Shown: piece by piece, positions 13,383 through 15,444 of the stretch
Position numbering within the stretch: the stretch's first letter is position 1
How the letters are laid out: the number at the start of each line of letters is the position of its first letter
NCBI GenBank assembly: GCA_018822545.1
Contig: JAHJKA010000022.1
Coordinates: forward strand, 1 to 64,000
DNA length: 64,000 nt
From: Pseudomonadota bacterium
GTDB taxonomy: Bacteria; Desulfobacterota; Desulfobulbia; Desulfobulbales; SURF-16
Direction of reading: 5' to 3'
Made by a program: the position numbers and the translations under genes
Notes under the pieces: generated by a model
Told to the model about the DNA's origin: nothing
What the model saw: only the letters and a program-made list of their open reading frames with translations
The model's database searches: none

Positions 13383-14939
13383 TCAGCTAAAAAAACAGTA
13401 GGGGTCCTTTTCACTAAAAAAATCAAGCCCCATGCCATGGGTTACGGCCAGACAGCCGCCACAGGCAGCCCGTATCTTACAACCGTCGCAGGCCGCAGAT
13501 CCTGCCCTGTAGCGCTCGCCAGCCTCGGAATGATAGATCTCAGAGAGTGTGTTTTCACAGATATTGCCCATATATGATGGGAATTTACGACAGGCATGAA
13601 CCTCTCCCTCAGCCAGCAGGGACAGAAAATTGAAAGCCGCACCACAGCCATAACCGGTACACCCGCCAAAAGAAGAGCGGCCTTCGCGGGCAAACAACGC
13701 ATTGAGGTGGTTATCTTTGAGTCCCATGCAGGGGTTGTCCAGGGAGGCCGTATAATAACGCCGCAGAAAATCTTCATAGCCTTGGGTAGGGGCAGAGAGC
13801 AGCTGCGCGCCCTCACCCACCATGGCCAGACGGTTGAAGTTAAAGAGATCAACCTGGTTTCTGAGCACTTCAGCAAGGGGCAAAACCTGTTCTTGATTCT
13901 CCCTGGTCAGGGTCAGCATAACCATGGAATAGATAGCAAGCTCTTTCAAAATGGCCAGAAACTCGATGATCCGCTGGAAATGCCCGGCACCGCGAATATG
14001 GTCATTATGCTCCGCAAGGCCTTCCAGGCTGACCTGATAAAACTCTAAAGGCTGAATGGCCTGTAACTCTTCAAGCACCTCCCTTGACGTGGGATTGCCG
14101 AGAATAGCCAGCTGAAAACCACGCTCAGAGGCGGCCTGATAAAGCTCGCTGAAACGGGGGTAGAGCAACGGGTTGCCACCGGTGAAGGTTACCTGACCAT
14201 AGACATGGTGCTCGCGACAAAAAGACCGGAAATCATCAAGAATGGTGAGGGCCTGGGTAAAGTCGACGGCCTTGCGGCTCGTCCGGTCATAACAATGCTT
14301 ACAGTGCAGATCACAGGCCTGGGTGATATGCCATTGCAGGGTAAAGGCCGACGAGGAGAGATACCTCTTGGAGGTGAAATCATTTTCCTTAAAAACAGCA
14401 GGATCGCGGCGAATGGTGGTTGCCGGCACCAGGATATACTCCTCCTGTTCCGCCCGCTCAAGAATACGGTCAAGATAGGCAAAAGTCACCTGGTGCTCCC
14501 TGGCCGCCTGGGCCAAGTCGATATTCTCCTCAACAAGCTTTAATGCCAAAAGATCCTGGGGCCCGGCATTCTTATAACGCACCGCACCATTGGTTTGACG
14601 CCAGACCAATACCAACTGTTCGCCTGGTTTGCCCTCTTCATCACGCCCGGCCAGAATGGGAGCGAGATTCTGCCAATCAAACTGGGCAATACGTAAACTT
14701 GGATTAAGGACGATCTTATCAGCGGGTGGGGCCAGATCAACATCGAGCCGTTCCACTGCAACCAGCAACTGCTCGAGACGGGCAAGATCGGGGAGAAAGG
14801 CGGGTAGGTGTAAATCATCAACATGGTTGGCCAGCCAGTCAGCCATATCCAGGGACAACTCCTCATCATGGGCCTGAAGGGCTTGACAAAGAATTGCCAG
14901 GGAACGAGGGTAATCGGAAATCATATCTCTGCGTGCCAC
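13383..14939 (-). CDS. sbtM: radical SAM/SPASM peptide maturase, SbtM-like (selenobiotic system)
   Basis: 518-aa radical SAM enzyme with CxxxCxxC at C209, C213 and C216 (ACDLHCKHCYD) for the 4Fe-4S/SAM cluster. Its cysteine-rich C-terminal SPASM/twitch region (GGCTGYGCG, then CDGCKIRAACGGC) would hold auxiliary clusters. The N-terminal 190 residues include a helical section and a possible winged-helix, PqqD-like recognition element near 105-170 (inferred). It matches what I remember as the thio(seleno)oxazole/'selenobiotic' maturase family SbtM. Its likely substrate is the four-Sec peptide encoded immediately upstream on the same strand. The frame opens with GTG 14939; ATG 14924 is an alternative. 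A terminator separates it from the peptide gene, suggesting partial read-through. Confidence 0.82.
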   Translation of the reverse strand: MARRDMISDYPRSLAILCQALQAHDEELSLDMADWLANHVDDLHLPAFLPDLARLEQLLVAVERLDVDLAPPADKIVLNPSLRIAQFDWQNLAPILAGRDEEGKPGEQLVLVWRQTNGAVRYKNAGPQDLLALKLVEENIDLAQAAREHQVTFAYLDRILERAEQEEYILVPATTIRRDPAVFKENDFTSKRYLSSSAFTLQWHITQACDLHCKHCYDRTSRKAVDFTQALTILDDFRSFCREHHVYGQVTFTGGNPLLYPRFSELYQAASERGFQLAILGNPTSREVLEELQAIQPLEFYQVSLEGLAEHNDHIRGAGHFQRIIEFLAILKELAIYSMVMLTLTRENQEQVLPLAEVLRNQVDLFNFNRLAMVGEGAQLLSAPTQGYEDFLRRYYTASLDNPCMGLKDNHLNALFAREGRSSFGGCTGYGCGAAFNFLSLLAEGEVHACRKFPSYMGNICENTLSEIYHSEAGERYRAGSAACDGCKIRAACGGCLAVTHGMGLDFFSEKDPYCFFS

Positions 14940-14952
14940 CTGATGGGAAAAC

Positions 14953-14992
14953 TATAAAAAAAACGGGTTTACCGCCACCAGCGGTAAACCCG
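14953..14992 (-). terminator. strong terminator/attenuator between the selenopeptide and its maturase
   Basis: A 12-bp perfect stem (CGGGTTTACCGC / GCGGTAAACCCG) with a 5-nt loop is followed on the minus strand by eight Ts. It lies 14 bp before the maturase start. Such placement lets the short peptide message greatly exceed the maturase message. Confidence 0.85.
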
Positions 14993-15004
14993 ACGCACAA
15001 CATG

Positions 15005-15023
15005 AGAGTGCAACCTGCACTCT
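15005..15023. repeat. 8-bp hairpin in the selenopeptide 3' region
   Basis: AGAGTGCA and TGCACTCT pair perfectly around a 3-nt loop, between the peptide stop codon and the terminator. It could stabilise the 3' end of the peptide mRNA. Confidence 0.4.
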
Positions 15024-15040
15024 GAAACAGAAATCTTGTC

Positions 15041-15053
15041 AGCAGTATCTGCT
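15041..15053 (-). promoter_or_regulatory. candidate SECIS hairpin for the fourth UGA
   Basis: On the minus strand AGCAG and CTGCT pair around a 3-nt loop, 25 nt after the TGA at 15079-15081. It is weaker and differently spaced than the first three and lies beyond the stop codon, so it is the least certain of the four. Confidence 0.4.
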
Positions 15054-15063
15054 CAAAAAATTC

Positions 15064-15378
15064 CTATTTGCTGCTACCTCAGCTTGAGCCTGCTGCATCT
15101 TTTTTCTTTTCGACACTCCCGGTGTCGTCTTTTGTGCCACCTCAGCTGGAGGCGGCTGGATCAGCCGCCTTCTTTTCGTCAGCGCTCACGGCGCTGTCTT
15201 TTGTGCCACCTCAGCTTGATCCTGTCTGATGCTGTTCCCCGTCGGCGCCACCTGCGCCGGTTTTAGGCGGGCCTCAACTACTGCCGGCATGTGCCCCAGG
15301 AATAGCAACTCCTGCTCCGGCAATAAGTCCGGCGAGACCGAACCGTGCCAAAGTTTTCTTGAGCTCCTTGATTTCCAC
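15064..15378 (-). CDS. sbtA: multi-selenocysteine RiPP precursor peptide, SbtA-like (four in-frame UGA)
   Basis: 104 codons from GTG 15378 to TAG 15064-15066, read through four in-frame TGA codons (codons 35, 56, 79, 100; plus-strand positions 15274-15276, 15211-15213, 15142-15144, 15079-15081). GGAGG lies 6 nt before the GTG. Residues 1-31 look like a leader or Sec signal: basic start (KELKK, R12), hydrophobic FGLAGLIAGAGVAIPG, then AHA as a possible cleavage point. The rest is four units, each with Ser-Ser-Sec-Gly; units 2 and 3 share SSUGGTKD. Linkers of about 15 residues are rich in Lys, Asp, Ala and Gly. Each of the first three TGAs has a SECIS-like hairpin at identical spacing. The adjacent maturase gene fits the SbtA/SbtM 'selenobiotic' class recalled from the literature. 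A pseudogene is unlikely: four stops in the same codon context would not arise by decay. Confidence 0.88.
15111..15127 (-). promoter_or_regulatory. SECIS-like hairpin for the third UGA
   Basis: On the minus strand CGACAC and GTGTCG form a perfect 6-bp stem with loop CGGGA, starting 14 nt after the TGA at 15142-15144. The loop begins 20 nt from the UGA and has G as its second base, fitting the bacterial SECIS rules. Confidence 0.78.
15180..15196 (-). promoter_or_regulatory. SECIS-like hairpin for the second UGA
   Basis: CAGCGC and GCGCTG form a perfect 6-bp stem with loop CGTGA, starting 14 nt after the TGA at 15211-15213. It has the same architecture as the first and third but a different stem sequence. 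Confidence 0.78.
15243..15259 (-). promoter_or_regulatory. SECIS-like hairpin for the first UGA
   Basis: CGGCGC and GCGCCG form a perfect 6-bp stem with loop AGGTG, starting 14 nt after the TGA at 15274-15276. The AGGT loop resembles the apical loop of the classical fdhF SECIS. Confidence 0.8.
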
Positions 15379-15444
15379 GTTTTTCCTCCATTAACCAAAG
15401 ATTAAGAGAGATGCGAAGATTGCAGCTTACCAACCTCCACCCTT

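Follow-up and report, generated by a model that had tools for sequence, protein, structure and literature searches.

What do a short peptide gene with four in-frame UGA codons and the radical S-adenosylmethionine (SAM)/SPASM enzyme gene beside it produce together, how would the enzyme recognize its substrate, and where would the product act? The question is raised by two minus-strand genes, sbtA and sbtM, in a 64,000-nucleotide stretch of contig JAHJKA010000022.1 (assembly GCA_018822545.1; here called the window) from a bacterium of the Desulfobulbales lineage SURF-16. Judged by profile matches, the two genes can be assigned to the SbtA/SbtM system of ribosomally synthesized and post-translationally modified peptides (RiPPs), which is itself already known: the family has been named and one member has been characterized. 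Lewis et al. (2021) is reportedly the primary paper on this thio(seleno)oxazole family. We consider it probable that the pair forms a self-contained two-gene RiPP system, which would be an oxygen-independent selenium counterpart of the captophorins with a product exported by the general secretory or the lipoprotein route. For the association of SbtM with a module of MNIO partner proteins, no mention in print was found in the literature searched, most subscription papers lying outside its reach, and the same search found none for SbtA leaders as export or lipoprotein signals.

The assignment to a known family follows from both genes passing curated NCBIfam cut-offs. SbtA of the window scores 36.3 bits against TIGR04081 (cut-off 30.5; match over residues 1–27) and SbtM 691.4 bits against TIGR04082 (cut-off 350; residues 19–516 of 518 covered), and the trait that marks SbtA members, a core with selenocysteine (Sec) or Cys adjoining sbtM, is present as four UGA codons with sbtM 124 bases downstream. 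A new RiPP family was thereby ruled out. In the enzyme, the cysteines of the CDLHCKHC motif (C209, C213, C216) and the cysteines 427, 432, 450, 484, 487, 493, 496, and 515 are invariant across 46 homologues, and structure comparison gives 6EFN (SkfB) with Z 24.0 over 285 aligned residues. The original prediction, made from the letters of the window, had proposed a peptide gene and a radical SAM/SPASM gene adjoining on one strand, a CxxxCxxC motif and a Cys-rich C-terminus; all of these are borne out, its coordinates are right, and the two family matches support its view of a RiPP system in which the adjacent enzyme modifies a multi-Sec peptide.

Profiling of maturase against peptide, which the same prediction had suggested, was carried out with profile searches over 395 genomes of the phylum. 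SbtM is found above the cut-off in 39 genomes and SbtA at E 0.001 in 39 (above the cut-off in 37); both occur together in 37 of the 41 genomes with either (Fisher p 3.6e-47, uncorrected for kinship). Two genomes have SbtM without a TIGR04081 match (G129 and G289), and in G129 a Cys-type SbtA (L028) was detected by our own leader profile. Maturase homologues consistently paired with a different gene, named in advance as the counter-case, were not what was found: of 92 loci, which include four duplicates of others, 84 have an SbtA-family leader close to SbtM. The other eight comprise three unlinked cases, three in which the contig ends close upstream of SbtM (L053, L082, and L087), and L049 and L084. 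Since SbtA and SbtM are located on separate contigs in G088, G339, and G376, the pair need not be linked.

Modelling and profile comparison indicate that SbtM is a PME-type module, consisting of DUF2063-like helices and a RiPP recognition element (RRE), fused to a radical SAM/SPASM enzyme. A model of residues 1–199 by themselves, built from 41 sequences, has a pLDDT of 88.7, and Foldseek searches with it returned a single PDB entry at E ≤ 0.001, namely 3DEE/NGO1945 (E 3.7e-6). The top VIA-align rows, tied within Z 1, are 3DEE (Z 12.3; 159 aligned, 3.8 Å) and the TglHI entries 8HCI and 8HI7 (Z 11.8 and 11.5; 171 aligned, 4.0 Å), in which chain A is presumably TglI; further rows are RRE-sized only (TbtB 8.4, MibB 8.2, TbiB1 6.7; about 80 aligned). 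NGO1945 and TglI are MNIO partner proteins (PMC12452194). The radical SAM/SPASM RiPP maturases SkfB (6EFN), CteB (5WGG), and SuiB (5V1T) also carry an RRE and share the fold of SbtM, but the two-domain match of the SbtM N-terminus is to PME proteins, whereas CteB matches the RRE part only (Z 4.9).

Profile-profile comparison leads to the same module. An independent test set was assembled from 12 DUF2063 proteins of 11 other genomes of the phylum, three of which adjoin genes passing the bufferin-maturase cut-off (three such neighbours were scanned). Aligned to this set with hhalign, the SbtM N-terminus reaches a probability of 98.9 and E 2.6e-17 over 180 columns spanning both domains, as opposed to E 0.41 for the radical SAM part, 0.28–0.67 for five column shuffles, and 2e-4 (57 columns) for the reversed alignment. 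The window N-terminus alone matches the HvfC family at E 1.7e-7, and 5 of 41 SbtM members, the window among them, do so at E ≤ 0.01. It scores below the curated cut-offs of HvfC (NF050145; 31.4 of 142 bits) and NGO1945_C (20.1 of 27 bits), so that by sequence the module is a relative and not a member of the HvfC and Pfam DUF2063/NGO1945_C families. 3DEE was missed when the PDB was searched by sequence, whether the query was the N-terminal alignment or the N-terminus of the window SbtM, and was found by structure and profile-profile comparison. As other helix-turn-helix Pfam families match the SbtM N-terminus as weakly as DUF2063 does, the case for the module is not based on Pfam. What had been described as a possible N-terminal recognition element can thus be named as a PME-type DUF2063-RRE module. 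A module search in 326 genomes gave 35 positives, 32 with SbtM and three with DUF2063. Mutual exclusion of DUF2063 and SbtM was considered and dropped, as their co-occurrence in 0 of 11 genomes compares with about one expected by chance (p 0.61). One genome (G077) encodes a standalone PME protein that is close to the module of SbtM (L136 5069-7269, G077:C41) and matches TIGR04082 at E 1.8e-11. By our own reading, its neighbours are a gene resembling those for MNIOs and a short peptide that bears a signal and CGSGNCGSGNCG repeats.

The four UGA codons of sbtA all sit in a GSS-U-G or ASS-U-G context. The first three are followed by hairpins resembling selenocysteine insertion sequence (SECIS) elements, which start 17 bases past the U in one register and have quite different stems. 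Across the family, 204 UGA sites in 79 peptides were counted after four duplicate loci (L009, L058, L051, and L045) and peptides longer than 130 residues had been dropped. A stem of at least 6 bp occurs in the hairpin zone at 77% of these sites; the corresponding shares are 3% for Cys sites (n = 35), 15% for other codons (n = 600), and 6% for shuffles. A G lies within the first two loop bases in 157 of the 158 such hairpins. At 88 sites matched in register, the stem forms 5.77 of its 6 pairs, compared with 3.90 (standard deviation 0.105) under synonymous codon redraws and 1.4–3.1 when the register slides; the pairs interchange among C-G, G-C, U-A, and A-U. Because the pattern selecting the 88 sites fixes some hairpin letters, weight is placed on the synonymous control and on the 204-site count, which used no such filter. 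The hairpins are kept beyond protein-coding need. A peptide-level function of the GAGS, SAVS, or TGSV segments after each Sec was mostly ruled out: they correspond to the hairpin within the codons, which is absent at most Cys sites, and, since hairpin conservation exceeds that of synonymous redraws, are largely an RNA signal seen through the code. An Rfam scan of the window at gathering thresholds gave no match and hence no support from a SECIS family.

The genome of the window encodes SelB above the cut-off (365 bits) and tRNA-Sec above the gathering score (72.8 bits), although SelB, present in 353 of 395 genomes, is not discriminating. In the characterized system, the precursor likewise contains Sec, with an insertion element just 3′ of the UGA (PMC11002830); the window peptide has four Sec in one chain. 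The number of UGA codons per peptide ranges from 0 to 6, with at least one in 75 of 79, and Sec sites come and go among relatives: L028 and L097 are Cys-only, L014 and L086 carry Cys at sites that are Sec in their neighbours, and in L039 and L040 one Sec each is replaced by Gly (GGA for UGA) with the downstream hairpin-coding motif kept, so single Sec sites can be lost. One locus (L023, G202:C13) offers a natural comparison of sulfur and selenium, as a single SbtM is accompanied there by two SbtA copies, one with four Sec and the other with Cys throughout (CGGMKKCPKC). In another (L034, G318:C13), the SbtA frame continues into SbtM with nothing but UGA codons between; read-through would give an SbtA-SbtM fusion, and UGA probably acts as the stop in this case.

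The leaders of SbtA are short and Lys-rich, followed by a hydrophobic stretch, and their motifs suggest that they double as export signals for the general secretory or lipoprotein route. Of 85 distinct peptides, 36 carry a Cys precisely at residue 29, mostly in a lipobox-like setting and followed mostly by Ala or Ser (once by Asp), and 22 peptides pass the strict pattern [LVI][ASTVI][GAS]C. These two counts are quoted because the loose lipobox class of 49 takes in core Cys at 35–36 (L010, L011, L028, L055, and L083) and early Cys (L034 and L061); among the 85 are some peptides whose ends are doubtful, as well as L048, a Sec-free case with a leader-like match only. Nineteen further peptides have AxA at 23–38, among them the window peptide with IPGAHA. 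Clustering of 542 open reading frames from 62 loci revealed no conserved transporter, protease or metal gene, nor any other neighbour gene conserved across the loci. The largest neighbour cluster (histidine-kinase-like by our own reading) covers 13 loci at scattered positions, and the second (10 loci) is an antisense frame of sbtA. Genes tightly downstream of sbtM (17 loci) or upstream of sbtA (7 loci) belong to no recurrent family, with the exceptions of one short frame in L048 and L052 and a glycosyltransferase-like gene (own reading) of the window's nearest relatives. Family-wide, the motifs and the neighbourhoods support the earlier suggestion that export uses the signal-like leader with no linked transporter or protease.

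Export signals in RiPP precursors have been described for MNIO products. Bufferins have precursors exported by the general secretory pathway, called an original feature among RiPPs, and some 16% of Buf2 bufferins are predicted to be lipoproteins (PMC12452194). MNIO-made RiPP-lipoproteins have been demonstrated experimentally (PMC12636315), and DUF2063-type RREs go with secretory signal peptides and not with a leader motif (PMC12710340). The RiPP-lipoproteins DybA and NedA resemble the proposed Sbt route in their lipoprotein-signal leader and modification before export, but they involve MNIO enzymes and no selenium (PMC12636315), and SbtA of the window is of the AxA and not the lipobox kind.

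A parallel lies with the captophorins, copper-linked PME1/MNIO products that contain 5-thiooxazoles, MNIOs being enzymes that use O2 (PMC12668002). Captophorins, bufferins, and oxazolin, all made by an MNIO with PME1 (PMC12668002; PMC12452194), share with Sbt a homologous substrate-presenting module, repeated modified sites, and a secretory or lipoprotein signal in the precursor. In captophorins, oxidation with a mass change of 4 Da gives a ring of the thiooxazole type whose 305 nm band is the same as that reported for the SbtM product; on account of this absorption near 305 nm, the modified SbtM peptide has been grouped with them (PMC12668002). In contrast, the catalyst of SbtM is a radical SAM/SPASM domain fused to the module and that of captophorins a separate O2-using MNIO; Sbt uses selenium where captophorins and bufferins use sulfur; and no DoxX or sigma factor neighbours were seen at the sbtA/sbtM loci. 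Sbt may thus work like the captophorin system but is not one, its catalyst being radical SAM/SPASM and not MNIO. In its accessible part, the account of the characterized system mentions neither a PME module nor export or lipoprotein leaders (PMC11002830).

With regard to the product, the characterized SbtM acts on Cys or Sec substrates with the removal of four hydrogens, converts Cys to thiooxazole, and yields a thio(seleno)oxazole (PMC11002830); by analogy, SbtM of the window would make thio(seleno)oxazole on its own peptide. The original prediction had called both product and function unknown; for the product, the characterized member now supplies part of the answer.

A mechanism can be proposed from these elements. 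The UGA codons of sbtA would be read as Sec, aided by the SECIS-like hairpin after the first three. The PME-type module of SbtM would then bind the SbtA leader and offer the S-S-Sec-G sites serially to the radical SAM/SPASM domain. Hydrogen abstraction in SbtM chemistry takes place at the beta carbon; at each Sec, this abstraction would be followed by closure of a selenooxazole with the loss of four hydrogens per site. The leader would next serve as a signal peptide, by which the modified peptide would cross the membrane through the general secretory route and be cut after AHA in this organism, and in many relatives, to judge from the signal motifs, be lipidated at Cys29. As SbtM needs SAM and a reductant and would presumably act intracellularly, the order of capture, serial oxidation of the SSU sites, and export is the simplest fit. 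Free or anchored, the poly-selenooxazole peptide would most likely bind Cu(I) or other soft metal ions in the extracytoplasmic space, with no oxygen needed for its synthesis.

This metal function is favoured on account of the 5-thiooxazoles of captophorins, their link to copper, and the grouping of the modified SbtM peptide with them for its 305 nm absorption. Extracytoplasmic soft-metal binding is nevertheless a possibility on the doubtful side of even. Met/His-rich Cys-type members (L028 and the second copy of L023) fit it, and the mature part of the window peptide, with one His, is neutral. A broader proposal is likewise tentative, falling a little short of probable: a PME module would be common to the unrelated O2-using MNIO and O2-free radical SAM catalysts, both making (thio/seleno)oxazoles on exported or anchored peptides, and Sbt products would be extracytoplasmic poly-selenooxazole metal buffers of anaerobes. 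Several points weigh against these readings. SbtM lacks approximately the first 45 residues of DUF2063, and part of the SbtM family keeps only the RRE half, so that the DUF2063-like part is not essential everywhere. A simple pattern scan found neither a lipobox-like Cys nor AxA in 17 of 85 leaders; the sbtA/sbtM neighbourhood contains no metal genes, leaving the metal function to be argued by analogy; and the zone after UGA 4 forms only five A/T-rich pairs.

The weakness at UGA 4 also bears on the view that translation ends at the UGAs, or that they are decayed codons, with a peptide of about 34 residues as the real product. The only other hairpin after UGA 4 lies further downstream, past the TAG, and for this reason the reading of UGA 4 as Sec is weaker than that of UGA 1–3; the replacement of one Sec by Gly in the close relatives L039 and L040 would likewise fit stops or decayed codons. 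Hairpins, register, and synonymous-codon bias are, however, strong for UGA 1–3, in relatives the reading frame continues, open and conserved, through each UGA to TAA or TAG, and selB and tRNA-Sec are present in the genome, which makes a short peptide very improbable. If the biosynthesis is as proposed, the product could instead be an extracytoplasmic redox or selenium-storage peptide in which metal binding is incidental and the heterocycles adjust or shield selenium so that it can serve in electron transfer, remove peroxide or be stored. Most carriers are sulfate reducers or anaerobes related to them, with abundant Sec use, as the distribution of SelB illustrates, and most members retain Sec despite the existence of Cys versions. 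The PME module and heterocycle shared with copper-binding peptides speak against this alternative, a maturase and export would be superfluous for storage, and the Cys-only members indicate that selenium itself is dispensable; we regard it as unlikely. More improbable still is a role as an antibiotic or signal, with the peptide leaving the cell once its leader is removed. RiPPs are often bacteriocins, and the AxA end of the window leader would free a soluble peptide, but no conserved immunity, transporter or protease gene lies nearby, lipid anchoring is expected in the many relatives with Cys29, and the variable number of repeats is unlike a defined receptor ligand. The capture, oxidation, and export of a metal-binding selenopeptide accordingly stays the preferred reading, at the strengths given above.

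The features of the locus are collected in the table below. Immediately 5′ of the sbtA start lies a ribosome-binding sequence, GGAGGAAAAA, at 15389–15380. A terminator-like hairpin such as the strong one between the two genes was found in 30 of 69 sbtA-sbtM gaps of relatives by our own scan, and may allow the SbtA precursor to be made in excess over the SbtM enzyme.

Features of the sbtA/sbtM locus, in positions of the window
Feature	Positions	Strand	Details
sbtA precursor peptide gene	15067..15378	minus	GTG start 15378, last codon AAG 15067, 104 codons, translated with UGA as Sec
Leader and putative signal peptide, residues 1–31, PGAHA end before first GSSUG	15286..15378	minus	TIGR04081 match, AxA class; predicted cleavage
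UGA 1 (Sec35)	15274..15276	minus	
SECIS-like hairpin after UGA 1	15243..15259	minus	6 bp, loop AGGTG
UGA 2 (Sec56)	15211..15213	minus	
SECIS-like hairpin after UGA 2	15180..15196	minus	6 bp, loop CGTGA
UGA 3 (Sec79)	15142..15144	minus	
SECIS-like hairpin after UGA 3	15111..15127	minus	6 bp, loop CGGGA
UGA 4 (Sec100)	15079..15081	minus	less certain, no standard hairpin
sbtA stop codon TAG	15066-15064	minus	
Terminator-like hairpin between sbtA and sbtM	14964..14992	minus	13 bp, then eight T
sbtM radical SAM/SPASM maturase, 518 aa	13383..14939	minus	GTG start 14939; TIGR04082
Predicted PME-type module (DUF2063-like helices, then RRE), SbtM residues 1–174	14418..14939	minus	
CxxxCxxC of radical SAM cluster (C209, C213, C216)	14292..14315	minus	PF04055 E 3.7e-17
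SPASM region, eight invariant Cys (427–515)	13395..13661	minus	PF13186 E 7e-7

If the proposed reading is true, substrate recognition would be separable from catalysis in these systems, with one module serving O2-dependent and O2-free routes to the same kind of heterocycle. Selenopeptides so far unexplained would gain a testable role in the handling of soft metals outside the cell, and lipoproteins bearing selenium heterocycles would be predicted.

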